The notes below the pieces were generated by a model. It had not been told where the DNA came from. It did not search any database and was given only the letters and a program-made list of their open reading frames with translations. Shown here piece by piece: positions 36,340 through 50,416 of a stretch of 64,000 nt of DNA. Position 1 is the stretch's first letter. Every line of letters begins with the position of its first letter. Where the stretch lies: assembly GCF_030815985.1 (NCBI RefSeq), contig NZ_JAUSXM010000001.1, positions 5,270,001-5,334,000 on the forward strand, written 5' to 3'. This DNA is from Paenibacillus sp. W2I17 (GTDB lineage Bacteria > Bacillota > Bacilli > Paenibacillales > Paenibacillaceae). The position numbers and the translations under genes were made by a program.

Positions 36340-36584
36340 TTATGCAAAGAGAATCATTGTCCTGATGAGGAATTGTCAACGAATGATCGCTAATCATAAT
36401 CAATGACAGGCACAGCACCATGAACATGATTCGCAAGGCTCGGGCTTCGGCTAGTTTTTAATAACCGAATCCGTTTGAATACCGAATCAGCTTCATGAGG
36501 AACCCTTGGCAAGCCTGGAGTTGATTCATCATATTACTTATTAGTATATGATTTGAATTTGATTTTTACACGAATGACGAAGAG

Positions 36585-36697
36585 GGCAGAAATGACCTGT
36601 AGAAGCGAAGCGTTCGCCTTTATCCCCGGATTTAACCCTCTGAGAAGAGAGTTTAAAAGAAATCAGGGGATAACAGCGATCGAAAGGACATTCTGGC
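36585..36697 (+). repeat. Structured dispersed repeat, copy A (upstream of secA)
   Basis: About 113 nt. Outer helix CAGAAATGACCT (from 36587) with AGGACATTCTG (36685-36695). Small hairpin GCGAAGCGTTCGC (36605-36617). Main helix TTATCCCC (36620-36627) with GGGGATAA (36666-36673), topped by an apical hairpin AACCCTCT/AGAGAGTT. The conserved single-stranded CAGCGATC follows. It lies about 140 bases upstream of the secA start. Confidence 0.8.
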
Positions 36698-36839
36698 AAC
36701 TGAGTTGATGAAGTGTAACCTTCATTAAGCTCAAATCATATTGTTTGTCACCCCCGGGCAAGTGGATACAACATCCATCCGATGGTGTCGCGTGGCGGCA
36801 ACAGGGGGTCTATTCTGTTTTGCACGAAAGGGGTATACC

Positions 36840-39344
36840 ATGCTAGGACTTGTCAAAAAGATCTTCGGCGACATGAATGAACGTGATGTTAAACGTCTGA
36901 TGAAGACGGTCGATGTGATCAATAAACTGGAACCACAATTTCAGGCGTTGTCTGATGAACAACTGAAAGGTAAAACGGACGAATACCGTGCTCGTATTGA
37001 AAAGGGAGAAACAACAGATGAGCTTCTTCCAGAGGCATTTGCAACCGTACGTGAGGCATCACGTCGTGTGCTGGGCAAACGTCACTACGATGTACAGATG
37101 CTGGGCGGTATCGCTCTGCATGAAGGCCGTATTTCCGAGATGAAAACGGGTGAAGGTAAAACGCTGGTAGGAACACTTCCGGTATATCTGAACGCGTTGA
37201 TGTCCAAAGGTGTACACGTGGTCACGGTCAATGACTATTTGGCACAACGGGATAGCCAGGAAATGGGACAAATCTATGAATTCATGGGCATGTCGGTAGG
37301 GGTTAACCTGAGCGGTATGGACCATGCTTTGAAACAACATGCGTATGCATGTGATATTACGTACGGAACGAACAACGAGTTTGGATTTGACTATCTGCGT
37401 GACAACATGGTGCTATACAAAGAGCAAATGGTACAACGTCCATTGTTCTTCTGTATCATTGATGAAGTGGACTCCATCCTGGTCGATGAGGCGCGTACGC
37501 CACTCATTATCTCTGGACAAGCTCAGAAGTCGACGGATATGTACTATGCAGCAGATCGTTTTGTGAAACGTTTGGTGCCGGAAGAAGACTTTACGGTAGA
37601 CATTAAGGTGAAATCCGTAGCGTTGACTGAGGCGGGCGTGGCAAAAGCAGAGAAAGCATTTGGTATCGAGAACTTGTATGATCATGCCAATGTAACTCTC
37701 AACCATCACATTGTACAGGGCTTGAAAGCTAATGCAATCATGCGTCGTGACGTGGATTATGTTGTCAGTGATGAGGAAGTCATGATCGTTGATGAATTCA
37801 CAGGTCGTCTGATGTCTGGACGTCGTTACAGTGATGGATTGCATCAGGCGATTGAAGCCAAAGAAGGCATTGAAGTACAAAACGAAAGCATGACGCTTGC
37901 TACGATTACCTTCCAGAACTATTTCCGGATGTACCGTAAACTTGCGGGTATGACGGGTACAGCGAAAACCGAGGAAGAAGAGTTTAAAAAAATCTACGGT
38001 CTCGAAGTACTGCAAATTCCAACCAACCGTCCAAACAAACGCGATGACATGGCAGATGTCGTGTATAAAAGCATCGATGGCAAGTTCAATGCCGTCGTAG
38101 AAGAGATCGTGGCACGCCACAGTAAGAACCAGCCGGTTCTGGTAGGTACAGTATCCATCGAGAACTCGGAGCGCCTGTCTGACATGCTGAAACGCCGTGG
38201 TGTAAAACACCAGGTACTGAACGCCAAGTACCATGCGGAAGAAGCAGAGATCATCTCAGGAGCTGGTCAAGCGGGTGCAGTAACGATTGCAACCAACATG
38301 GCTGGACGGGGTACAGATATTATCTTGGGTGAAGGTGTAGCTGAAGTAGGCGGCCTTCATATCATCGGTACAGAGCGTCACGAATCACGCCGGATTGATA
38401 ATCAGCTGCGTGGTCGTGCGGGACGTCAAGGTGACCCGGGTTCAACACAATTCTACCTGTCACTGGGTGATGAATTGATGAGACGTTTCGGTGCAGACAA
38501 TGTATTGAACATGATGGAGCGCCTTGGTTTTGAAGAAGACCAACCGATTGAGAGCCGAATGATTACCCGTGCAGTAGAATCAGCGCAGAAGCGTGTTGAA
38601 GGTAACAACTTTGACGTACGTAAAATCGTCCTCCAATATGATGATGTTATGAACCAACAACGTGAAATTATATATAAACAGCGCCGCGAGGTACTGGAGT
38701 CCGAAAATATCAAACAGATCGTTATGGATATGATCAAACCTTCCATTGAACGTATCGTTGAAGCACATTGTAGTGACGATATCCCGGAAAACTGGGAGCT
38801 TCAGGAAGTTGCTGATTACATGAACAGCAAATTGCTGGACGATGGTTCCATAACTAAAGATGATCTGTGGGGCAAGGAAGCAGAAGAGATTATCGAGTTC
38901 CTGTTTACGAAAGTTCAGAACAAGTACAATGCACGTGAAGAGCGAATTGGCGAAGAGATGGTTCGTGAGTTCGAGAAAGTCGTTGTGCTCCGTGCAGTAG
39001 ACAGCAAGTGGATGGATCATATTGATGCAATGGATCAATTGCGTCAAGGTATCCACCTTCGCGCCTACGGTGGTACAGATCCACTGCGTGAATACCAGTT
39101 CGAAGGCTTCGAGATGTTCCATCAGATGATCGCTTCGATTCAGGAAGAAGTAGCGACATATGTGATGAGAGCACAGATCGAGAGCAATCAGGAGCGTCAA
39201 GCGGTTGTTGAGGAAAGCCAGATCTCGACAAGCGGTGAGCCTGCTGAGAAACGTCCAGTGAAGGTTTCTGACCAAATCGGACGTAACGATCCATGTCCAT
39301 GCGGTAGTGGCAAGAAGTTCAAACACTGCCACGGTCAAGAGTAG
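36840..39344 (+). CDS. secA: Preprotein translocase ATPase SecA
   Basis: 834 residues. ATP-driven motor that pushes unfolded preproteins through SecYEG, including the SLH and other secreted proteins of this window. Walker A MKTGEGKT at 101-108; Walker B/DEAD box [16 protein letters not shown] near 208; motif III-VI helicase region with [10 protein letters not shown] and [13 protein letters not shown]. The C-terminus has the zinc-binding SEC-C motif ([16 protein letters not shown]). The start at ATG 36840 has GAAAGGGG upstream; the in-frame extension to 36741 is not conserved. The length is close to the 841 of B. subtilis. Confidence 0.98.
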
Positions 39345-39345
39345 C

Positions 39346-39378
39346 GCGATCGGAAGATGCTACTGTAATCGGAGTGCA
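39346..39378 (+). repeat. 3' half copy of the structured repeat
   Basis: GCGATCGGAAGATG...CTGTAATCGGAGTGC, just after the secA stop, resembles the 3' part and right flank of copy B (GCGATCGGAAGG...CTGTCATTGGAGTGC). The 5' part is missing. Confidence 0.5.
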
Positions 39379-39629
39379 GGTGTAACATTTACTAGGTCAA
39401 CTTATATAGCATGACATGAACGGCTCCTCGCAGCCGGGTATTCCATAGGATGAAGTGAAGGATGCAAAACAGATTAATGGTGCATAGTTATAATAATATG
39501 ACCATGATCACGGAGAAGAGATATACTGATACACCAGTAATCTCAACACCGGTTTGGCGCATCGGATACTTGATCTGGAGGAATGCCCTGGATGCGGGGA
39601 GCTTATCTTAATGAAAAGAGGAATTGCAC

Positions 39630-40743
39630 ATGATCGATCCAAATGTGAAGCATGACCTGCGTGAAATAGGCAAGAAACTAACAAACCTTAGGGGGTCTCT
39701 TTGACTTAGATCTGAAGCAAGAGATGATCGGCAACTTCGAAGTGAAGATGTCTGCCCCGGATTTCTGGGATGACAGTGACAAGGCACAATCCGTAATCGC
39801 TGAGTTAAACGCGGTAAAGGGATCTGTAGATCAATACACCAAACTTCAACAAGATTATGATGATGCGGTGATGATGATTGAGCTGGCGGACGAAGAAGGC
39901 GACGAAGACCTCGCATCCGAGATTGGTAACAGTATTACAGCGATCGTGAACAAAGTCGCAGAGTTCGAACTTCAGCTTCTGCTGAATCAACCATATGACA
40001 AGATGAATGCGATTCTGGAGCTTCACCCGGGTGCGGGTGGTACCGAGTCCCAAGATTGGGGACAGATGCTGCTCCGGATGTACACACGTTGGTCCGAGAA
40101 GCGTGGCTTCAAGGTTGAGGTATTGGATTATCTGCCAGGTGATGAGGCTGGGATCAAGAGTGTTACGTTGTCGATTAAGGGACATAACGCTTATGGATAT
40201 CTGAAAGCCGAGAAGGGTGTACACCGACTGGTGCGGATCTCTCCTTTTGACTCATCGGGCCGTAGACATACGTCCTTCGTATCCTGTGATGTGGTACCGG
40301 AGATTGATGATACGATTGAATTGGACATTCGCACAGAGGATCTCAAGATCGATACGTACCGGGCAAGTGGCGCGGGTGGACAACATATTAATACCACCGA
40401 CTCTGCCGTACGGATTACTCACCTTCCGACAGGTGTAGTTGTAACGTGTCAGAATGAGCGTTCACAGATCAAGAACCGTGAGCGAGCGATGACGATGCTC
40501 CGTTCGAAATTGTATGAGCGTAAAATTGAAGAGCAAAAACAACAGCTGGATGAAATCCGAGGAGATCAATCGGATATTTCATGGGGTAGCCAGATTCGCT
40601 CCTATGTGTTCCATCCCTATAGTATGGTAAAGGATCACCGTACAAGCGTAGAGACTGGAAATACAGGAGCAGTAATGGACGGCGACCTCGATGCATTCAT
40701 CGATGGTTATTTGCGTAGCCAGATTAAAGTAGAAACCGATTAA
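39630..40743 (+). CDS. prfB: Peptide chain release factor 2 (programmed +1 frameshift)
   Basis: Recognises UGA and UAA stop codons. It is encoded in two frames: 24 codons from ATG 39630 to TGA 39702-39704, then +1 into the frame starting at 39703, 370 residues in all. The frameshift signal AGGGGGTCTCTTTGAC (39690-39705) is the classical one, with an internal Shine-Dalgarno-like AGGGGG, slippery CTT and TGA followed by C. The main part has the RF2-type SPF tripeptide ([16 protein letters not shown]) and the catalytic GGQ ([20 protein letters not shown]). AAGAGGA precedes the ATG. Low RF2 stalls at TGA and so favours its own synthesis. Confidence 0.97.
39690..39705 (+). promoter_or_regulatory. 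RF2 programmed frameshift site
   Basis: AGGGGGTCTCTTTGAC: Shine-Dalgarno-like stimulator three bases before the CTT slippery codon, then TGA-C. It is almost base-for-base the E. coli prfB site. Confidence 0.95.
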
Positions 40744-40747
40744 TATA

Positions 40748-40805
40748 AGTTCCTGTATGGACCCATACGTGTAGGCGTATGCTGGTGTGTACAGGAGCTT
40801 TTTTT
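40748..40805 (+). terminator. Rho-independent terminator of prfB
   Basis: AGTTCCTGTA (40748-40757) pairs with TACAGGAGCT (40790-40799), with an inner ATACG/CGTAT helix and a T-run. Confidence 0.85.
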
Positions 40806-40836
40806 GAGTTTACAGACAAAAGGAGAGCAAGATGAT

Positions 40837-41745
40837 ATGCAACAACGATCACAACTTCACAATAATCGCAAAAAGAGGATAACTAGCCTCATTCCACTCA
40901 ATGGTCCATGGAGGAACGTGGTGGATACGGTATCCATCATTGTAGGTTCGTTTTTAATCGCAGTGGCCTTTAATTTATTTTTATTACCGAATCAGATCGC
41001 TTCGGGTGGGGTGTCAGGCTTATCAATTCTGGGCAAGGAGTGGCTCAATCTGGAGCCGGCATACACCCAATGGGCAATTAACATTCCACTTCTGATTGCG
41101 GGTTTCCTGCTCATTGGCAAGCAGTATGGTGTTCGCTCAGTACTGGGAAGTATTGTCCTGCCACTGTTAGTCTATCTTACGAAGGATTGGGCGATTCCAA
41201 CAACGAATCCACTCCTTGGTTCACTGTATGGTGGAATTGGCGTTGGCCTGGGGATCGGAATTGTATACCGGGGTAGAGGATCAACAGGCGGCATGAGCAT
41301 TCTTGCCAGAATCGTGCAGAAGTACAGTGGACTCAGTTACTCTCTCTGTGTTGTGATTATGGATGCCACGGTTATTATTATGGCTGCTTTTGTATTGTCA
41401 TTGGAACAGTCTCTCTATGCGTTGATTGGGTTGTATGTTACCGGTAAAGTGATCGATGCCGTCGAGATGGGGTTGGGCTTCTCCAAGGTAGCATATATTA
41501 TCTCCAACCAGACGGAAGCGATTAGCAAAGTGATTCTGGATGACTTGGATCGCGGATTAACGAAGCTGGAAGCCAAAGGTGGTTACACTGACGATCAACG
41601 TACAGTACTAATGGTAGTGGTTGGGCAAAATGAGGTGCCAAGACTCAAAGCGTTGATCCGGTCTGTGGACCCGGGGGCTTTTGTCATTATCAGTAACGCG
41701 CATGAAGTGCTCGGCGAAGGTTTTAAGCGGGGAGAACATGTGTGA
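40837..41745 (+). CDS. YitT/YvjA family membrane protein (DUF161, DUF2179)
   Basis: 302 residues. ATG 40837 with AAAGGAGA upstream; the frame runs back to 40804 inside the prfB terminator. Five to six membrane segments (VDTVSIIVGSFLIAVAFNLFLLP; INIPLLIAGFLLIG; SIVLPLLVYL; YGGIGVGLGIGIVYRG; IIMAAFVLSL) with the conserved SGGVSGLSIL and GRGSTGGMSILA, then a cytosolic DUF2179 domain (GGYTDDQRTVLMVVVGQNEVPRLKALIRSVDPGAFVIISNAHEVLGEGF). Transport substrate unknown. Its place right after prfB matches B. subtilis yvjA. Confidence 0.9.
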   Translation: MQQRSQLHNNRKKRITSLIPLNGPWRNVVDTVSIIVGSFLIAVAFNLFLLPNQIASGGVSGLSILGKEWLNLEPAYTQWAINIPLLIAGFLLIGKQYGVRSVLGSIVLPLLVYLTKDWAIPTTNPLLGSLYGGIGVGLGIGIVYRGRGSTGGMSILARIVQKYSGLSYSLCVVIMDATVIIMAAFVLSLEQSLYALIGLYVTGKVIDAVEMGLGFSKVAYIISNQTEAISKVILDDLDRGLTKLEAKGGYTDDQRTVLMVVVGQNEVPRLKALIRSVDPGAFVIISNAHEVLGEGFKRGEHV

Positions 41746-41810
41746 ACGGTGTGAAAAATAGCGAGTGAACCATATAGGCTTAATAAGTTTGGGAGTTCAA
41801 AACAAGAAAA

Positions 41811-41862
41811 AAACAGGCATATCCTTCTCCGAAATGACGGGAGAGGATATGCCTGTTTTTTT
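41811..41862. terminator. Bidirectional terminator between the YitT gene and cls
   Basis: AAACAGGCATATCC (41811-41824) pairs with GGATATGCCTGTTT (about 41845-41858), with A-run on one side and T-run on the other. It can serve the YitT-family gene on the plus strand and cls on the minus strand. Confidence 0.85.
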
Positions 41863-41905
41863 TACTATTACTATAATTTCGACTAAACATCACGATAACG
41901 GAGAG

Positions 41906-41978
41906 GACAGAAATAGCCTGAAGAAGCGAAGCGTTCGCCTTTATCCTGGGGATAACAGCGATCGGAAGGGATTCTGTC
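41906..41978 (+). repeat. Structured dispersed repeat, copy B (minimal form)
   Basis: 73 nt, the shortest complete copy. Outer helix GACAGAA (41906-41912) with TTCTGTC (41972-41978), hairpin AAGCGAAGCGTTCGCCTT, and a main helix cut down to TTATCC (41941-41946) with GGATAA (41950-41955) and a 3-base loop. It lies just past the bidirectional terminator and 15 bases before the cls stop on the other strand. Confidence 0.8.
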
Positions 41979-41993
41979 ATTGGAGTGCCACCG

Positions 41994-43442
41994 CTACAGA
42001 ATCGGAGACAACAGACGGGAAATCGCTTCTTTGAAGCGGATAATCAGACTACGTTTTTGGTATTCATCAAGCGTCATTTCCCGCGATACATGCAGGTCGT
42101 GCTCAAAGGTTTGTACAAGTGCTGTCGCAATCGCTTCATCATACATAAAAGCATTAACCTCAAAGTTTAACCGGAAACTGCGGTAGTCAATATTGGCGGT
42201 TCCCACGGATGCAACCAAACTGTCAATGATAAGTGTTTTGGCATGAATGAAGCCATTATCATATATAAATACTTTGGCGCCCACCTTCAACAACTCACCA
42301 ATATAAGATAGCGTAGCCCAATATACAAAGGCATGATCGGGTTTATTTGGAATCATGATACGAACATCTATGCCGGACAGACACGCGAGACGAATAGCTT
42401 CGAATACACTGGCATCCGGGATAAAATAAGGCGTTTGAATCAGAATCGATTGTTTGGCACCATTAATCATCTTGAGATAACTGTTCTTGATATGTTCAGT
42501 CTCTGCATCCGGTCCACTGGAGACAATCTGCATGGCAATCTTTCCAGTGCCCTCGATATGAGGGAAATGCGCCGGAACGTAAGGTGTGTCGTGTTGTTTG
42601 GACGCTTCATTCCAATCCAGAAGGAAACGGGTCTGCAGCGCATGAACGGCATTCCCCTGAATACGCAGATGTGTGTCGCGCCAGTAACCAAATTTCGAGT
42701 TTAAGCCAAGATACTCATCTCCGACGTTAAATCCGCCCGTGTACCCGAGGTTACCATCAATGATGACAATTTTACGGTGGTTCCGGTAGTTCATACGCAA
42801 GTTGATCAGACTGAATTTGGAGGGGAAAAAGACTTCAACCAAACCGCCTGCTTCGCGCAATTCTTTGAAAAAACGTTTTGATACCCGCCGTGATCCGAGC
42901 GCGTCATACAGTAAACGAACTTTGATGCCTTCCCGCGCTTTGCGGATGAGTGCATCCCGGATTCTTTTGCCCAGACGGTCGCCTCTATAGATGTAGTATT
43001 GTACGTGTACGTGATCCTGAGCCGCTTCGATGTCATCCAAGAGCCGCTGGAACTTGTCTGTTCCGTCCGTAATGATCTCAACCGCATTATCCTCCGTTAA
43101 CAGAGCACCGTTCTGCTTCAGGTTCATATAAATCATGTCCTGGCTACTCTCGGTTGCTTGGTTGCGGAAAGGGGCGCGGTTATCGTGCAACTGTGTGAGC
43201 TGGGCTTCAATACGTTCCTCTAGCCCGAGCTTCTTACGTTCCTTCCACTGGAAAAGCCGGTATCGGGTCAGATTCTGACCGGTTAAAAGATAAAGTACAA
43301 ACCCAAACACCGGAATAAAGTTCAAGACGAGCAGCCAAGCCCAGGAAGCGCTGGCATCCTTCCGTTCGAAGAAAACGACTGCTGCCGCAAAAATAATATT
43401 CAGGCCCAGGAGTACAATAAGTAAAATGGATTCGATATGCAC
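41994..43442 (-). CDS. cls: Cardiolipin synthase
   Basis: 482 residues, minus strand, GTG start at 43442 with GGGGGA upstream. Makes cardiolipin by joining two phosphatidylglycerols in the membrane. Two N-terminal membrane helices (ILLIVLLGLNIIFAAAVVFF; WAWLLVLNFIPVFGFVLYLL) are followed by two phospholipase D motifs: HRKIVIIDGNLGYTGGFN near 225 and HAKTLIIDSLVASVGTANID near 405. The length is typical. It is transcribed towards the YitT-family gene and shares its terminator. Confidence 0.96.
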   Translation of the reverse strand: MHIESILLIVLLGLNIIFAAAVVFFERKDASASWAWLLVLNFIPVFGFVLYLLTGQNLTRYRLFQWKERKKLGLEERIEAQLTQLHDNRAPFRNQATESSQDMIYMNLKQNGALLTEDNAVEIITDGTDKFQRLLDDIEAAQDHVHVQYYIYRGDRLGKRIRDALIRKAREGIKVRLLYDALGSRRVSKRFFKELREAGGLVEVFFPSKFSLINLRMNYRNHRKIVIIDGNLGYTGGFNVGDEYLGLNSKFGYWRDTHLRIQGNAVHALQTRFLLDWNEASKQHDTPYVPAHFPHIEGTGKIAMQIVSSGPDAETEHIKNSYLKMINGAKQSILIQTPYFIPDASVFEAIRLACLSGIDVRIMIPNKPDHAFVYWATLSYIGELLKVGAKVFIYDNGFIHAKTLIIDSLVASVGTANIDYRSFRLNFEVNAFMYDEAIATALVQTFEHDLHVSREMTLDEYQKRSLIIRFKEAISRLLSPIL

Positions 43443-43640
43443 TATAGTCCCCCACGTCTCATAATGACCATCATGAATCTATTCATATGTCCTTGATTAG
43501 CAGGTTAGTTATGAATGAGACCCTGATTGTAATGTTTCCTACTAATACGTATTTTAACAGATGTATACCTATTCGTCCCGGATGTTAAAAAAGATATGTT
43601 CGGATTGGATGGAAATCCATGTGAAATTGATGATAGAGTG

Positions 43641-43669
43641 TTGTATTTATATAACCAGAGTCGTATAAT
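43641..43669 (+). promoter_or_regulatory. Promoter of the arginine cluster
   Basis: TTGTAT (43641-43646), 17 bases, then a perfect TATAAT (43664-43669), giving a leader near 100 nt before argC. An ArgR/AhrC box probably overlaps, since GTATAATAATAC is weakly palindromic, but I cannot assign one with confidence. Confidence 0.6.
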
Positions 43670-43772
43670 AATACACAAATATGCATATAAGCGACGGAAT
43701 TGCTGTGTTCGAGTATCCTTCATGCGAGGGCACAGCACAAGTAGCGCATACATCGAGATTGGGGGAGCGAGA

Positions 43773-44822
43773 GTGAATAATAAATTAAAAGTAGCAATCG
43801 TCGGTTCCACCGGCTACGGCGGGGTGGAGCTGATTCGTTTTTTCCAGAACCATCCGCTGGTTGAAATCACATCGGTGATCTCATCATCGAGCAGTGGTGA
43901 GTCCATCGCAGATGGATTTCCGCATTTGACGGACGTGATTCACAGGCCACTCGACGGTGTAGATCCGGCTGAAATTGCGAGTCGTGCGGATCTGGTATTC
44001 ACAGCGACCCCGTCCGGCGTAAGTGCCAAGCTCGTACCAAGTCTTCTGGCAGCAGGGCTTAAGGTGATTGACCTTTCTGGCGATTTCAGACTCAAGGATG
44101 GAACAGTGTACGAAGAGTGGTACAAACATCCGGCGCCTTCAGCTGATTTGCTGGAACAAGCGGTATACGGCATGGCTGAGGTGTATGGTGAAGAAGTGAA
44201 GGGACAGAATTTTATTTCAAACCCGGGCTGTTATCCAACGGCTACACTTCTTGGACTGATCCCTGCTGTAGAGGCAGGCTGGATTGATCCTTCTACTATT
44301 ATAATTGATGCCAAATCAGGCGTATCTGGAGCAGGACGCGGAACAAGTCTGACAAACCATTATGCAGAGATGAATGAGAATTTCAAAGCCTATAAACTGA
44401 ATAAACATCAACATATTCCCGAGATCGAACAAGTGCTTGGCAGTATAACGGGAACGCCTGTTACGGTTACCTTCACAACACATCTGGTGCCAATGACACG
44501 TGGAATCATGAGTACGATGTATGCCAGCCTCGTGGGGGGACACAGCGACCGGGAGATCGTAGATTTGTACCGTAAATATTATGAGAACAGACCTTTTGTA
44601 CGTGTACGTGAACCGGGCATCTGGCCTTCTACCAAGGAAGTGTACGGATCCAACTATTGTGATATCGGATTTGCGGTGGATCCTCGCACAGGTCGTTTAA
44701 CGATTATTTCGGTCATCGACAACCTGGTGAAGGGTGCTTCCGGGCAAGCGATTCAAAATATGAACCTGATGATGGGATGGGAGGAGAACCTCGGGCTGAA
44801 CATGACACCGGTATATCCATAA
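43773..44822 (+). CDS. argC: N-acetyl-gamma-glutamyl-phosphate reductase
   Basis: 349 residues. Third step of arginine synthesis: NADPH reduction of N-acetylglutamyl phosphate. The start is GTG 43773, with GGGGGAG (43761-43767); the frame is open back to 43596 across the promoter. The nucleotide-binding motif VGSTGYGGVEL begins at residue 10, and the catalytic Cys153 sits in SNPGCYPTA. First gene of a collinear argC-J-B-D-F-G-H set. A 131-base leader separates it from argJ. Confidence 0.97.
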   Translation: MNNKLKVAIVGSTGYGGVELIRFFQNHPLVEITSVISSSSSGESIADGFPHLTDVIHRPLDGVDPAEIASRADLVFTATPSGVSAKLVPSLLAAGLKVIDLSGDFRLKDGTVYEEWYKHPAPSADLLEQAVYGMAEVYGEEVKGQNFISNPGCYPTATLLGLIPAVEAGWIDPSTIIIDAKSGVSGAGRGTSLTNHYAEMNENFKAYKLNKHQHIPEIEQVLGSITGTPVTVTFTTHLVPMTRGIMSTMYASLVGGHSDREIVDLYRKYYENRPFVRVREPGIWPSTKEVYGSNYCDIGFAVDPRTGRLTIISVIDNLVKGASGQAIQNMNLMMGWEENLGLNMTPVYP

Positions 44823-44953
44823 GGGATTGGAAATCAGGAGGAGCACTGGAACATTCGGTGTAAAAGTGCTCTCTCAGAGTCTTCTAGGGAGAACGGATCA
44901 GGTTAAGCAGGCGGATCATCAGCATATAGCTGAACGCATACGGGGGATATGAT

Positions 44954-46192
44954 ATGGGAACGAATGTGGAGCAACAGACTTTTACCGTGGTAGAGAACGG
45001 AACAATTGTAACCCCTGGGGGATTCACTGCTGGTGGACTTCACTGCGGATTGAAAAAGACATCTCGCAATGACATCGGAGCGATCCGATGTGATATACCA
45101 GCTACAGCTGCTGCTGTATACACAACGAACGTGTTTCAAGCCGCACCACTCAAAGTAACGCGCGAAAGCTTGAGCAATGGACGCCTTCAGGCTGTTATCG
45201 TTAACAGTGGTAATGCCAATGCATGTACAGGGCAACAAGGGGAAGAAGATGCTTATGCGATGCGTTCGGCTGCTGCGCGTGAGTTGGGTGTGGCTGAAGA
45301 GGACGTTGCTGTGGCTTCCACAGGTGTCATTGGTGAATTGCTCAAAATGGATGCTGTACATTCAGGCATTACCGGACTTCCGGCGCATATGGGCAAGGAG
45401 TCGAATGAGGCGGAGCAATTTTCACAAGCGATTCTGACAACGGATTTGGTGAAAAAGGAAGCCTGCGTCTCCGTTATGGTAAACGGCAAGACGGTAACAA
45501 TTGCAGGTGCCGCTAAAGGCTCGGGTATGATTCATCCGAATATGGCGACAATGCTCGCTTTCATGACCTCTGACGCGGTCATTGGTGCAGAAGCGTTGCA
45601 GCGCCTGCTGCGCCAGGCAACGAATCATACATTCAACATGATTACAGTCGATGGGGATACAAGTACAAACGACATGCTGGTAGCTATGTCCAGTGGATAT
45701 GCAGGCAATGAAGAGCTGACCACAGAGCATCCGGATTGGGACGCTTTTGCAGCCGGCTTCACCTATGTATGCCAAGTGTTGGCCAAAGCCATTGCTCGCG
45801 ATGGTGAAGGAGCAACCAAACTGGTCGAGGTAGAAGTTACAGGAGCAGTAAGTGATGAGTCCGCGCAAGCAATCGCGAAAACTGTCATCGGGTCCAGTCT
45901 GGTGAAATCCGCCATGTTTGGCGCTGACGCCAACTGGGGACGGATTATTGCAGCCGTAGGGCGTGCAGGACAACCGGTGAACCCGGATACCGTGGATATC
46001 CGTTTGGGTGAGATCTCCGTACTCGCGCAGTCCCGCCCAGTCGTGTTTGACGAAGAAGTGGCACTGGCGTATTTGCAGACTGATACAGTTCGCATCGTGG
46101 TGGATTTGCACCACGGCGAAGGAACGGCAACAGCCTGGGGCTGTGACCTGACGTATGACTACGTCCGAATTAACGCCGCATACCGCACTTAA
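44954..46192 (+). CDS. argJ: Bifunctional glutamate N-acetyltransferase / amino-acid acetyltransferase
   Basis: 412 residues. Recycles the acetyl group from N-acetylornithine to glutamate and, in bifunctional forms, uses acetyl-CoA as well. It is made as a proenzyme that cleaves itself before the nucleophilic Thr199 in HPNMATMLAF. GGGGGAT lies upstream of ATG 44954. The absence of argA and argE in the cluster agrees with a cyclic pathway. The 320-base gap to argB contains copy C of the structured repeat. Confidence 0.97.
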   Translation: MGTNVEQQTFTVVENGTIVTPGGFTAGGLHCGLKKTSRNDIGAIRCDIPATAAAVYTTNVFQAAPLKVTRESLSNGRLQAVIVNSGNANACTGQQGEEDAYAMRSAAARELGVAEEDVAVASTGVIGELLKMDAVHSGITGLPAHMGKESNEAEQFSQAILTTDLVKKEACVSVMVNGKTVTIAGAAKGSGMIHPNMATMLAFMTSDAVIGAEALQRLLRQATNHTFNMITVDGDTSTNDMLVAMSSGYAGNEELTTEHPDWDAFAAGFTYVCQVLAKAIARDGEGATKLVEVEVTGAVSDESAQAIAKTVIGSSLVKSAMFGADANWGRIIAAVGRAGQPVNPDTVDIRLGEISVLAQSRPVVFDEEVALAYLQTDTVRIVVDLHHGEGTATAWGCDLTYDYVRINAAYRT

Positions 46193-46324
46193 TAAGAATT
46201 AGCATTTATTCTATTGAAGCTAACAGCTTCCCTATGAGAAGCTGTTTCGTAAATATATAGAAAATCTATAAGGATTGAACTTTATTTGGTCTTTGAGATA
46301 ACTGGCGAAGGCAGTGGAGAAGAC

Positions 46325-46428
46325 GGAATCGATTCTGAAGAAGCGAAGCGTTCGCCTTTGTCTCCGGGTTTCCCCTTTAAAAAGGGAATCAAAAAACCTG
46401 GAGACAACAGCGATCAAAAGAACGATCC
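46325..46428 (+). repeat. Structured dispersed repeat, copy C (upstream of argB)
   Basis: 104 nt and the most diverged copy. Outer helix GGAATCGATTCT (46325-46336) with AGAACGATCC (46419-46428), two bulged A. Hairpin GCGAAGCGTTCGC (46343-46355). Main helix TTGTCTCC (46358-46365) with GGAGACAA (46400-46407), apical CCCTTT/AAAGGG. Relative to the other copies the main helix differs at two positions on each side and every change is compensated. Confidence 0.8.
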
Positions 46429-46511
46429 GGATTCGGAACGGTCAGCTACCGAATATGCATCAATTAAGTGTTAAGCCTTTTAGAATATTTGAACGAAAGG
46501 AGCTTGCCCTC

Positions 46512-47351
46512 ATGAACTCAACAATGCCAAACGAGAGTACCGCAACGGAAGCGAGCACAGAGAAACAGATGTTTGTCATGAAATGTGGAGGCAGCACGCT
46601 GGCAGCATTGCCCGAGTCTTTCTTTGCGGATCTGCGTGATTTGCAATCTCAGGGCACGCAACCGGTAATCGTGCATGGTGGAGGTCCTGCGATCTCAGAT
46701 AACCTGGCGAAGCTTGGTATCGAAACCGAATTCGTTAATGGCCTGCGCAAAACGACTGAACCTGTGCTGGACGTAGTGGAGATGGTGCTCGCTGGAAGTA
46801 TCAACAAGCAGATCGTACGTCTGATTCAACGTGTGGGCGGTCGTGCACTAGGCTTGTCCGGCGTTGATGGAGGTCTGATTCAGGCGAAGCCCGTATCGAA
46901 CCACGCAGAGATCGGTTGGGTAGGCGATGTCACTGGTGTGAACGCAGAGATTATCCAAGGCATCGTGAACATGGGATACATGCCGGTTATCGCACCAGTT
47001 GGCGTAGATGCAACTGGACAACGCTACAACATTAACGCAGATACAGCTGCGGGTGCAGTGGCGTCTCATCTCGGCGTAAGTCGGATGATTGTCGTGACTG
47101 ACGTTCCTGGCATCATGAAGAACGTAGGCGGCGAGAAAAAAGTACTGCCATCCGTATCTGTACAAGAGATTGAGGACATGATCCAGACCGGAGAAATCTA
47201 TGGCGGCATGATTCCCAAAGTGCGTGCAGCAATTGCATGTATTCATGGTCAAGTACGTGAGGTCGTCATCGTAGACGGCAGCGAACCTCAGATCCTGAGC
47301 CGTGTGCTCAGCGGAGAAATCATCGGGACAAGAATCATCCGTATGCAATAA
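46512..47351 (+). CDS. argB: Acetylglutamate kinase
   Basis: 279 residues from ATG 46512, with AAAGGAG (46496-46502) upstream; the long in-frame extension to 46314 crosses repeat copy C and is not coding. Phosphorylates N-acetylglutamate. Amino-acid kinase fold: MKCGGSTL at the N-terminus, PVIVHGGGPAISDNL, NINADTAAGAVASHL and GGMIPKVRAAI. The length and motifs are typical. The 359 bases between argB and argD hold repeat copy D and two partial copies. Confidence 0.97.
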   Translation: MNSTMPNESTATEASTEKQMFVMKCGGSTLAALPESFFADLRDLQSQGTQPVIVHGGGPAISDNLAKLGIETEFVNGLRKTTEPVLDVVEMVLAGSINKQIVRLIQRVGGRALGLSGVDGGLIQAKPVSNHAEIGWVGDVTGVNAEIIQGIVNMGYMPVIAPVGVDATGQRYNINADTAAGAVASHLGVSRMIVVTDVPGIMKNVGGEKKVLPSVSVQEIEDMIQTGEIYGGMIPKVRAAIACIHGQVREVVIVDGSEPQILSRVLSGEIIGTRIIRMQ

Positions 47352-47437
47352 TTTGCTCTCGATGAGCTAGGGTCTTAATAGCCTTATATTATATATAAAA
47401 ATATGTGCACGATTTTTTTGTGAATCTGGACATAACG

Positions 47438-47477
47438 CGATAACGGAAGAGTGCAAAGCCAATCTGAAGAAAAGACG
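47438..47477 (+). repeat. 5' partial copy of the structured repeat
   Basis: CGATAACGGAAGAGTGC...GCC...CTGAAGAAAAGACG resembles the left flank and 5' arm of copy B (CGATAACGGAGAGGACAG...GCCTGAAGAAGCG). It sits immediately before full copy D. Confidence 0.45.
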
Positions 47478-47490
47478 TAAGAACGGAGAG

Positions 47491-47601
47491 GACAGAAATA
47501 ACCTGAAGAAGCGAAGCGTGCGCCTTTATCCCCGGATTTCTACCTTTAAACAATTAATCAAAGAAATCCGGGGATAACAGCGATCAGAAGGTTGTTCTGT
47601 C
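47491..47601 (+). repeat. Structured dispersed repeat, copy D (upstream of argD)
   Basis: 111 nt. Outer helix GACAGAAATAACCT (47491-47504) with AGGTTGTTCTGTC (47589-47601), one bulged A. Main helix TTATCCCC (47526-47533) with GGGGATAA (47570-47577), extended by GGATTT/AAATCC. The first hairpin reads GCGAAGCGTGCGC and has one mismatch. The end is about 110 bases before the argD start. Confidence 0.8.
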
Positions 47602-47623
47602 ATCGAAGTGGAAGTATGCATAC

Positions 47624-47652
47624 GTTCGGAAGATGGACTGCAATCGAAGTGG
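47624..47652 (+). repeat. 3' partial copy of the structured repeat
   Basis: GTTCGGAAGATGGACTG...CAATCGAAGTGG matches the 3' arm and right flank of copy D (CATCGAAGTGG) and the half copy after secA (CGGAAGATGC). Confidence 0.4.
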
Positions 47653-47710
47653 TCTAGTGTTATGTTTATTCACCTTAGGCGTGCACCAACCAATAGGGAG
47701 TGATATGGTC

Positions 47711-48964
47711 ATGGCAAAAGGCAACGAACAGCCAGGTTCTGGCATAGCGGTAGCGGGCGCGACAGCAACAGGTACAGCGGCACAGACGGAAAGCTCACTT
47801 TTCCAAACGTACGCGCGTTATCCAATCAGTCTGGTTAAAGGTAAAGGCAGCTGGTTATGGGATGATCAGGGTAACCGTTATCTCGATTTCATGTGCGGAC
47901 TCGCTGTAACTAGCCTGGGCCATGCACCGGAGAAAGTTGGAGCCAAGCTGAAAGCTCAGATTGATGAGTTGTGGCATGTATCCAACCTATTCCAGATTCC
48001 AGGCCAGGAGAAAGCAGCAGCATTGTTGACAGCCAATACATGTGCTGACGCGGTGTTTTTCTGTAACAGTGGTGCCGAAGCGAACGAAGCGGCTATTAAA
48101 GTCGCACGTCGTTATCACCAGAAGGTGAAAGGCACAGATCGCTATGAAGTGATCACATTTGCCCAGTCCTTCCATGGACGGACACTCGCTACATTGACAG
48201 CAACCGGACAGGATAAGGTGAAAGAAGGATTTTTACCATTGCCAGCCGGATTTGTAACCGTACCTTTGCATGACATCCCTGCACTTGAAGCGGCAATTGG
48301 ACCCAACACTGCAGCTATTATGCTGGAAATGGTTCAGGCCGAGGGTGGTGTGTATCCGGTTGAACCGGAATTCGTCAAACATGTACGGAAATTGTGTGAC
48401 GAGCATGGATTGTTGCTCATTGTTGATGAAGTTCAAACGGGAATGGGACGTACAGGCAAACTGTTTGCACACGAACATTATGGCATTGAGCCAGACGTGT
48501 TCACCGTTGCCAAAGGTATCGGCAGTGGTTTCCCTGTAGGCGCAATGCTGGGTAAAGGTTTCCTGCGGGATGCGTTCACGCCAGGAAGTCATGCGACGAC
48601 ATTTGGCGGAACACCACTTGCTTCATCCGTTGTGATTGCTACAATCGAAACGATGCTTGAAGATCGCTTGCCAGAGCGTGCAGCGGAGATGGGCGAATAC
48701 CTGATGAGCTCCCTACGGGATCGTTTGGCGGGTAACTCCTTTGTGAAGGAAGTTCGTGGTTTGGGATTGTTGGTCGGCATCGAATGCGCTGAACCGGTAG
48801 GTGATATTGTGCTTGCTGGGCAAAAACGAGGTATCTTGTTTGTCTCTGCAGGACCAAATGTGATTCGTTTGCTTCCGAACCTGTATGTGAGCAAAGAAGA
48901 GATCGACGAGGCGGTATCTCTGGTAGCCACATTGATCGAAGAGCAAGTAGCGGCGAAAGCCTAA
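47711..48964 (+). CDS. argD: Acetylornithine aminotransferase
   Basis: About 417 residues. PLP enzyme converting N-acetylglutamate semialdehyde to N-acetylornithine. GGGAG (47696-47700) serves ATG 47711 or the in-frame ATG 47705. The N-terminal 30 residues (QPGSGIAVAGATATGTAAQTE) are low-complexity. The class III aminotransferase core follows: GSWLWDDQGNRYLDFMCGLAV, FCNSGAEANEAAIK, LLIVDEVQTGMGRTGKLFAHEHYGI and FTVAKGIGSGFPVGAML, which contains the PLP lysine. No terminator follows; argF begins 200 bases later. Confidence 0.97.
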   Translation: MAKGNEQPGSGIAVAGATATGTAAQTESSLFQTYARYPISLVKGKGSWLWDDQGNRYLDFMCGLAVTSLGHAPEKVGAKLKAQIDELWHVSNLFQIPGQEKAAALLTANTCADAVFFCNSGAEANEAAIKVARRYHQKVKGTDRYEVITFAQSFHGRTLATLTATGQDKVKEGFLPLPAGFVTVPLHDIPALEAAIGPNTAAIMLEMVQAEGGVYPVEPEFVKHVRKLCDEHGLLLIVDEVQTGMGRTGKLFAHEHYGIEPDVFTVAKGIGSGFPVGAMLGKGFLRDAFTPGSHATTFGGTPLASSVVIATIETMLEDRLPERAAEMGEYLMSSLRDRLAGNSFVKEVRGLGLLVGIECAEPVGDIVLAGQKRGILFVSAGPNVIRLLPNLYVSKEEIDEAVSLVATLIEEQVAAKA

Positions 48965-49164
48965 TATAAAAATGAGAACCTTTCTGTATCGGGGCCATTA
49001 CCGGCCTCGAAGCAGAACGAGATGATGAATCCCTGTAGCCGCGCGGTGACTCTCGCAGAAGGTGGAAATGAATAAATTTGAGAAGCACGAAGCCAAGGTG
49101 TCAACGTTGCTCTCTCTTCTGCCCATGCGGGTGCAGGGAACCGGAAATAAGGAGGACATTATAG

Positions 49165-50130
49165 ATGACAGCACAACAGACGGAAAAGGTTCAAAAGATT
49201 GATCTGAGAGGCCGGGATTTTATCGAATTCACGGACTACACGGCCGAGGAAATTCGTTATCTGCTTGATCTCGCGATTGAGATTAAAGGCAAGCAAAAAA
49301 GCGGTGTACCTTTCCAACCGTTGAAAGGTAAAACGATCGGACTTATTTTTGAAAAATCATCCACACGTACACGTGTATCCTTTGAAGTGGGTATGTTCCA
49401 ATTGGGCGGACACGCGCTCTTCCTGAGCAAAAATGATATCCAGCTGGGTCGTGGGGAAACAACACATGATACAGCCAAAGTATTGTCCCGTTACCTGGAC
49501 GGCATCATGATCCGTACCTTTGGACACCATAATGTTACTGAACTGGCAGAGCATGCTGATGTTCCAGTCATTAACGGCCTGAGCGATGCAGCGCATCCTT
49601 GTCAGGTACTGGCAGACTTCCAAACGGTGCTGGAGCACAAAGGCAAGCTCGCAGGTCTGAAAATGGCTTACATCGGAGATGGCAACAACATGGCACATTC
49701 CCTGATGCTCGGAGCAGCGAAGATGGGTATGCATGTTGCTGTAGCAACGCCAGAAGGCTATGAGCCGGATAGCGCAGTTGTGGAGCAGGCACGCATTATC
49801 GCACAGGAGAGCGGTTCTGAAGTGACTGTAACCTACAGTGCACAAGAGGCAGCCAAAGATGCAGATATCGTGTATACGGATGTATGGGCTAGCATGGGCT
49901 TTGAGGAAGAGCAAAAGATTCGGGAGCAGGCATTTGCGGCATATCAAGTGGACGAGGAACTGATGAAAGGCGCGAAGCCGGACTACATGTTCTTGCATTG
50001 TCTGCCAGCACACCGCGGCGAAGAAGTAAGTGCCGGTGTAATTGACGGACCGAACTCCCTGATCTTTGATCAGGCGGAGAATCGTTTGCATGCACAGAAA
50101 GCATTAATGGCTGCATTAATGAGCGAATAG
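49165..50130 (+). CDS. argF: Ornithine carbamoyltransferase
   Basis: 321 residues. Makes citrulline from ornithine and carbamoyl phosphate. Carbamoyl-phosphate site STRT at 66-69 (EKSSTRTRVSFEVG), FLSKNDIQLGRGETTHDTAKVLSRYLDG, HPCQVLADFQT, and the ornithine-site HCLPAHRGEEV. AAGGAGG is upstream of ATG 49165. In B. subtilis argF follows carAB; here carAB is absent from the cluster and the carbamoyl phosphate must come from elsewhere. The 286-base gap to argG holds repeat copy E. Confidence 0.97.
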   Translation: MTAQQTEKVQKIDLRGRDFIEFTDYTAEEIRYLLDLAIEIKGKQKSGVPFQPLKGKTIGLIFEKSSTRTRVSFEVGMFQLGGHALFLSKNDIQLGRGETTHDTAKVLSRYLDGIMIRTFGHHNVTELAEHADVPVINGLSDAAHPCQVLADFQTVLEHKGKLAGLKMAYIGDGNNMAHSLMLGAAKMGMHVAVATPEGYEPDSAVVEQARIIAQESGSEVTVTYSAQEAAKDADIVYTDVWASMGFEEEQKIREQAFAAYQVDEELMKGAKPDYMFLHCLPAHRGEEVSAGVIDGPNSLIFDQAENRLHAQKALMAALMSE

Positions 50131-50241
50131 CTGCTATTTCATTGAATGGGTTGATTTTAGGCGAAGATTTCGCGATGATAGATTCATCTATAATGTACTT
50201 TAAAAAGTTAGTTAAATAAGAAGCATACACAACAACGAAGA

Positions 50242-50353
50242 GATAGAAAAAACCTGAAGAAGCGAAGCGTGCGCCTTTATCCCCGGATTTTACCCTTTGT
50301 CATAAAGGGATGAAAAAATCTGGGGATAACAGTGATCGGAAGGGTTTTCTGGC
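50242..50353 (+). repeat. Structured dispersed repeat, copy E (upstream of argG)
   Basis: 112 nt. Outer helix AGAAAAAACCT (from 50245) with AGGGTTTTCT (50341-50350). Main helix TTATCCCC (50277-50284) with GGGGATAA (50322-50329). Apical hairpin CCCTTT/AAAGGG. The conserved tail reads CAGTGATCGGAAGG. It ends 64 bases before the argG start. Confidence 0.8.
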
Positions 50354-50416
50354 TCGTAGGGTTCAGTGTATGAAGGCTCTGTTTAACTTAACTGATCTTG
50401 GGGAGGACCATCGAAC

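Follow-up and report, generated by a model that had tools for sequence, protein, structure and literature searches.

A structured repeat stands in front of secA, argB, argD and argG in Paenibacillus sp. W2I17, and its presence ahead of these genes raises the question of whether it is a mobile parasite, a regulatory site or a working part of the messenger RNA (mRNA). We studied it in a 64,000-nucleotide (nt) stretch of that genome (contig NZ_JAUSXM010000001.1, positions 5,270,001 to 5,334,000; "the window" means this whole stretch), elsewhere in the genome and in other genomes. Occupied and empty sites, a nested insertion and internally deleted derivatives mark the unit as a non-autonomous element like the miniature inverted-repeat transposable elements (MITEs). 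The inner ~125 nt have evolved as single-stranded, folded nucleic acid and look selected in the sense orientation, and sense-strand copies mostly end shortly before a start codon. The reading we prefer, with a probability of roughly 0.55, is a MITE-derived intercistronic or leader RNA module that acts in cis on mRNA processing, stability or translation.

Anatomy and spread of the unit

The syntenic secA–argH block was compared in 20 relatives, mostly the nearest among 59 as judged by ArgB. By a tolerant motif test, a copy stands in the hpf–secA gap of 7 of the 20, in the secA–prfB gap of 12 and in the argF–argG gap of 5 (the rest being empty there or without the inside); the argJ–argB and argB–argD gaps hold one in all 20, by motif test and model alike. 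Occupied and empty gaps differ by about 190–200 bp, or by ~230 bp with an optional 40-nt hairpin module, and gaps of intermediate length include stubs and internal deletions. At the secA site, where relatives have clean empty sites, comparison of the empty allele TTTTTATATTGTTTG with the occupied allele fits insertion at TA; as the unit ends (C-TA-TATAAG...CTTATA-TA-G) are themselves TA-rich, such a target is only suggestive, and unproven. Intact copies carry long terminal inverted repeats (CTATATAAGTTGAACTAA...TTTAGTTCAACTTATATAG, unseen in the second subfamily) and read CTATATAAGTTGAACTAA..ATTTACAC..AACGGAGAGGACAGAA (core) TTCTGTCATCGGAGTG..GTGTAAAT..TTTAGTTCAACTTATATAG. A preliminary description of the window had drawn the unit too short, as the outer arms bring it to about 190 bp. 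Among the readings which that description left open, a palindromic mobile unit is borne out by the terminal repeats and the site polymorphism, and an mRNA processing or stability element is what we infer below from fold and placement.

In the window the unit takes the following forms, scored with covariance model R1, which was built from nine copies (four in the window, five elsewhere in the genome):

36547..36740, +, copy A with outer arms TATGATTTGA...TCAAATCATA, in the leader of secA (start 36840); 115.6 bits
36577-36701, +, inner structured part of copy A (covariance model R1)
39343..39410, +, remnant (3' half, a stub) of one more copy, immediately after the secA stop in the secA–prfB gap
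41898..41982, +, copy B, with a shortened P4 main stem, flanked by yitT (+) and cls (-), which converge; 78.9 bits
46315..46435, +, copy C, second subfamily (GACGGAATCGATT-type stem), argJ–argB gap; 119 bits
47439..47471, +, 5' piece of an older copy interrupted by copy D, GATAACGGAAGAGTGCAAAGCCAATCTGAAGAA
47483..47605, +, copy D, nested within the older copy, argB–argD gap; 137.3 bits
47625..47659, +, 3' piece of the same older copy, beyond the inserted copy D, TTCGGAAGATGGACTGCAATCGAAGTGGTCTAGTG
50205..50389, +, copy E with outer arms, argF–argG gap; 112.1 bits
50234-50357, +, inner part of copy E (covariance model R1)

All five model matches share one orientation, and copies A, C, D and E stand in front of the plus-strand genes secA, argB, argD and argG, respectively, as had been described (secA, prfB, yitT and cls are named by Pfam domains; the arg names and hpf come from the preliminary description and a reading of the translations, without a domain scan). 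Five copies are indeed present, but the claim that all are complete and that each folds holds for four: these fold better than their shuffles (z -3.7 to -7.6), whereas copy B, its long stem cut short and most of it lost, does no better (z -0.95). The core CTGAAGAAGCGAAGCG, at up to three mismatches, matches six times in the window, five times within copies, against 0.5 expected, a count reached in 0 of 100 shuffles; the match at 44188 is not an element.

The nest of copy D inside the older copy is common to most relatives in the part compared (L041, L044 and L057 look different), and derivatives elsewhere in the genome keep both ends with the inside missing. Pairing is stronger between the two outer arms of one copy than between arms of different copies (-14.2 vs -9.5 kcal/mol). 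Twenty stretches with ends but without the core were inspected; they include a single pair, 3.8 kb apart, and visual inspection showed no transposase between its members. An IS630-type partner in the same genome was rejected, as no DDE_3 transposase was found there at E 0.001 (the control search found the family in 3 of 14 genomes; other transposase families and genomes were not searched). Side observations concern the same anatomy. Locus L140 (332006-332046 of the W2I17 genome) is a bare 41-bp palindrome of the two terminal repeats alone, with the whole inside missing. The optional ~40-nt hairpin module, AAAAGCTTTCTGAAAGAAAGCTGCATCGGAAGCATA, sits at the base of the main stem in L139:1575-1620, L049, L050 and some copies of the W2I17 genome, and is present or absent even at one orthologous site (argF–argG). 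In that same gap, L040 has flanks like those of L042 and an inner hairpin like that of L046, as if inner parts had been exchanged between copies.

Genome-wide, the 7.0-Mb W2I17 genome holds at least 150 covariance-model matches, all spanning the full model; this is a lower bound, because only 150 of 1186 first-look candidates were scored. The core pattern, at up to two mismatches, gives 164 matches there, against 3 with the pattern reversed. A model search of relatives, as the preliminary description had envisaged, finds the family throughout the genus. With stricter filters and at most 36 candidates scored per genome, matches occur in 71 of 99 genomes (W2I17 included), made up of 60/60 of the same genus, some with few (1 to 17), and 11/39 of other genera of the order. 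In a phylum-wide draw, 4 of 149 genomes match, all four of the same family, under stricter filters that may lose weak matches. Among the matches listed from a 28-base core scan of named genomes (at least 120 stretches), 80 loci are all from Paenibacillus. Plasmid or phage carriage of copy D was rejected, with no match in the plasmid and phage collections, from which records near the window's genome may have been left out. Similarity per aligned base reaches 0.93 in the best pair of copies and has a median of 0.44 over comparable pairs, and therefore no fresh burst of copies is seen.

Short (~190 bp), many-copy (at least 150), outside predicted genes (0 of 145 placed copies overlapping) and with occupied and empty orthologous sites at the hpf–secA, secA–prfB and argF–argG gaps, the unit has several of the marks by which MITEs are known. 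The main rival to an RNA module is a purely parasitic MITE, whose fold would serve transposition only, as folded single-strand or cruciform DNA, and whose bias toward one side of genes would be the leftover of purged harmful insertions. Anatomy, site polymorphism and the derivatives that lost their inside and kept both arms favor such a parasite, which we consider possible, if on the unlikely side; the argB and argD places, occupied in all 20 relatives, count against it.

The fold and its selected strand

The inner part was aligned from 132 dereplicated copies (168 before dereplication: 117 from W2I17, 51 from relatives). It forms one long jointed hairpin: a stem, a loop, a stem, a loop, a two-pair stem, a mini-hairpin, P3, a CU/CA joint and, following that joint, the long P4 stem with its variable tip. 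The first loop is a 3x3 5'-GNA/5'-GNA loop, with G in 132 and 127 and A in 131 and 130 of the 132 copies; the second GNA/GNA loop, which precedes the two-pair stem, is less strict (G in 130 and 105, A in 126 and 132). The mini-hairpin is best read as GC-GNA-GC, its loop being GNA in 118/132 and AAA or AGA in 14. Its register varies by prediction, RNAalifold giving either GC-GNA-GC (65-71, 66-70) or a shifted three-pair version (65-73, 66-72, 67-71); we favor the former because G-C changes to A-U at 65-71, and the prediction from a second genus resembles it. An alternative core hairpin, GCGAA/UUCGC, is disfavored because TCG is mostly retained in columns 74-76 although column 68 is variable (A 89, G 34, T 5, C 4).

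Compensatory differences had been claimed from the five window copies, and they are there, with two-sided changes at 8 of 30 predicted pairs. In the larger alignment, covariation was scored with a G-test, corrected by average product, and judged against a null of alignments simulated on a tree; among 18,336 column pairs, those of the structure take eight of the nine highest ranks and nine of the twelve highest. The second-genus set (G120; 14 of its 16 copies, leaving out two with the optional module or adjoining another match) provides further evidence: RNAalifold recovers the same architecture unprompted, with 47 pairs, of which 24 have changed on both sides (shuffles, 13.3; structure slid, 4-7), and 95.7% of its cells pair, against 86.8% shuffled and 35-48% slid. 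Orthologous copies at argB, in the 19 of 21 sequences that lack the optional module, show two-sided changes at 5 of 34 pairs. Identity at the argB and argD sites is 0.89 and 0.94 in the element and 0.63-0.77 in the flanks.

Wobble pairs indicate which strand looks selected. At inner pairs, G-U cells outnumber A-C cells by 86 to 29, in 19 pairs against 3 (p 0.0009; two pairs with wobble as their commonest state omitted). Folded whole as RNA, the sense strand is the more stable in 112 of 141 copies and the antisense in 27 (sequence-based counts use 141 of the 145 placed copies, four without recognised core motifs being dropped). The outer arms have no preference for the top strand, which pairs better in 59 of the 141 against 82 for the bottom, with wobbles at 181/2577 on top and 239/2695 below. 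The arms in this respect resemble DNA inverted repeats, whereas the inner part looks selected as a single strand in the sense orientation. A strand preference confined to the inner part does not sit well with the parasitic reading. GNA mini-hairpins and GGA/GGA loops are very stable in DNA as well, however, and single-strand DNA allows G-T wobble, both of which suit a parasite. Since G-T in single-strand DNA would count alike, it is placement that points to RNA.

The compensatory changes might also have arisen by DNA template switching within quasi-palindromes rather than by selection on a fold. The unit is a long imperfect palindrome, and its outer arms pair even where their sequence wholly differs, as such a process would have it. 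Template switching would erase mismatches, yet the non-complementary GNA/GNA, CU/CA and GAAGAAGCG loop positions are strongly conserved, G-U exceeds A-C at the inner pairs, and the top strand of the outer arms lacks wobble enrichment. As the explanation of these changes we hold template switching to be highly improbable; it is disfavored for the inner part and may have contributed in the outer arms.

Placement relative to genes and the proposed role

Placement was scored over 819 kb of the W2I17 genome around copies, with genes from a simple codon-usage caller; nhmmer gave 164 matches there, of which 145 were kept; those omitted comprise 18 partial matches and one close to the end of a segment. 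The copies are anything but random toward genes, in line with the preliminary description: none of the 145 overlaps a predicted gene by >30 nt, and in co-directional gaps 95 lie sense and 14 antisense (p 6e-16), the others being divergent (22), convergent (11) or at segment edges (3). Specifically, the end of the inner part lies ≤110 nt from a start codon in 62 of the 95 sense copies, and among the 73 sense or divergent copies no more than 130 nt from a start, 70 have a Shine-Dalgarno-like motif (loosely defined, without a background control) in the 20 nt before it. Of the 22 copies in divergent gaps, 15 are nearer the gene to which they are sense. An upstream gene ends within 150 nt of the core in 56 of 92 sense copies, and TTTTT occurs in the preceding stretch in 7 of those 56; many copies thus seem to lie inside operons, like those of argJ–argB–argD and argF–argG. 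The 80 listed Paenibacillus loci are placed likewise (45 sense, 5 antisense, 12 divergent, 8 convergent, 10 edge, 1 duplicate), and by a crude measure the longest downstream open reading frame is sense in 12 of 14 copies of G120.

Replication was considered as a cause of this orientation, origin and terminus being placed by gene strand bias, which changes sign near ~4.6 Mb and ~1.1 Mb, a crude indication of the two regions. Beside leading-strand genes the ratio of sense to antisense is 90:8. Where the neighboring genes diverge or converge, the leading strand carries 19 of the 33 copies and the other strand 14, and in these gaps so near-even a split does not support replication-strand bias as the cause. 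An orientation that tracks transcription strongly, and replication hardly, also argues against the parasite. So does the comparison with BOX and RUP, which the passages of PMC3049150 drawn on here describe as over-represented between convergent genes: only 11 of our 145 copies lie there, against 57 of 472 gaps of ≥40 nt in the same segments. It is because this sense and start-site bias sets the element apart from BOX and RUP that we prefer an mRNA module derived from a MITE.

How might such a module work? A MITE-like family of ~190-bp units, bounded by long terminal inverted repeats and with insertions compatible with a TA target, would have spread through Paenibacillus and some of its kin, and its inner part would now be retained as an RNA module. 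Leaders and operon gaps would be transcribed in the element's sense direction, as we infer from placement, and the module would form the long jointed hairpin with its two GNA/GNA-type loops and mini-hairpin, ending shortly before the Shine-Dalgarno motif and start codon. The module would act in cis, on its own mRNA: as a stable block of structure it would mark or protect the 5' side of the downstream cistron, probably as a site of ribonuclease processing or protection, and would keep the ribosome site open.

Several observations weigh against this proposal. Copies come and go among relatives at the hpf–secA, secA–prfB and argF–argG sites, and most single copies thus seem dispensable. The 11 gaps of genes running against replication hold 5 sense and 6 antisense copies, and in a third genus (G202) the longest downstream open reading frame, by the same crude measure, is antisense in both copies (0/2 sense). 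Individually significant covariation is sparse: three column pairs at E ≤0.05 in a 117-copy set, all three of them structure pairs, and 1 of 18,336 in the 132-copy set under the tree-based null, which deep subfamilies inflate; among the 45 best-ranked column pairs, 10 belong to the structure. Among the predicted features, the first loop is clearer than either the second GNA/GNA loop or the register of the mini-hairpin, and conservation of the copies could partly stem from gene conversion.

Downstream genes, known RNAs and related repeats

The preliminary description could not match the repeat to a known family, and this stands: in the window no Rfam family reaches its gathering threshold, and in a permissive search of the locus with copies C and D the best score is about 25 bits against thresholds of 50-99, so that a known Rfam RNA was rejected for both. 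One weak match to the ylbH leader (L009:273-378; 25 bits, threshold 50) overlaps the start of copy C, probably by chance.

NCBIfam scans of 30 of the 47 downstream genes within the distance and length limits (window genes skipped) place CarA, cytidine deaminase, PepT, acetoacetate decarboxylase, PcrA, SdhB, CntA and a GGDEF protein above cut-off; 11 of the 30 have no family at the limit used, the remainder falling below cut-off. No common pathway appears among these 30, which favors a general cis effect over a ligand-specific switch. A metabolite riboswitch, earlier judged unlikely, is accordingly disfavored, as the downstream genes named so far are unrelated in pathway. Alternatively, the copies might be bound by a trans-factor, such as an RNA-binding protein, under which many genes would form one co-regulated regulon. 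Conservation of unpaired GGA and GNA motifs at fixed positions would suit such a site, as would the fairly constant spacing from the start codon, but with named genes unrelated, 11 of the 30 without a family, and a set of copies that differs between species, we think a regulon unlikely. A mobile promoter driving the downstream gene is scarcely credible: the terminal repeat does contain TATATA, and promoters are reported to be made by Correia elements (PMC3049150, passages drawn on here), yet sigma-A-like matches in the 3' arm (9 of 12 positions) are at most weakly in excess, at 22 of 141 copies (15.6%) against 10.6% of shuffles.

Which known repeats does the element most resemble? By description, and by analogy, the closest kinds seem to be the bcr repeats of Bacillus cereus and the BOX and Correia elements; what follows reflects the parts of the cited papers drawn on here. 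The repeats bcr1–bcr18 of the B. cereus group are intergenic, bcr1-3 being MITE-like; about half of the copies are in transcripts, within untranslated regions or operon gaps, and bcr3 presence correlates with mRNA decay rate (table row 3.6 vs 2.5; PMC3446304). They share with our element an intergenic, MITE-like character in another genus; unlike it, no sense bias or siting right before the Shine-Dalgarno motif is reported for them in those parts of PMC3446304. BOX and RUP of Streptococcus pneumoniae are small interspersed repeats of slow turnover whose terminal repeats pair in the fold, BOX being modular and RUP having terminal repeats like those of IS630-Spn1; both are judged parasitic (PMC3049150). 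They favor convergent gaps, where the Paenibacillus element, as far as descriptions can be compared, favors sense leaders and operon gaps. Transcripts of Correia and ERIC elements fold; RNase III can cleave the former, and the latter can destabilize RNA upstream of them (PMC3049150); both are likewise short inverted-repeat mobile elements, but of other taxa. REPs measure 20-40 bp with GTAG or CGTC tags (PMC3733652), and REP/BIME and RAYT systems also comprise many intergenic palindromic copies, the Paenibacillus unit being longer at about 190 bp. Titles and abstract starts of open-licence PMC literature yielded no description of this repeat in Paenibacillus, a weak negative; a P. riograndensis transcriptome paper names riboswitches and, in the part drawn on, has no word starting with "repeat" (PMC5670726).

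If the preferred reading holds, the element would add an RNA family to the annotation of a common bacterial genus, and it is in any case an unusually clear MITE-like family whose inside is under sense-strand structural constraint and whose siting relative to translation starts is fairly fixed. With >100 natural copies in a genome, occupied and empty alleles in close relatives, and argB and argD places always occupied (20 relatives), the choice between parasite and mRNA part is directly testable. A wider idea is tentative, and we rate it doubtful: a mobile element spreading as a folded single strand may have become a standard mRNA part across the genus, a portable module with repeated GNA/GNA joints set before the ribosome sites of >100 unrelated genes, which would thereby share one post-transcriptional layer, spanning operons, through a common processing enzyme or binding protein. 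As a minor observation, the argJ–argB gap also holds, upstream of copy C, an inverted repeat AACAGCTTCCC..GAGAAGCTGTT, recognisable though varied in relatives.

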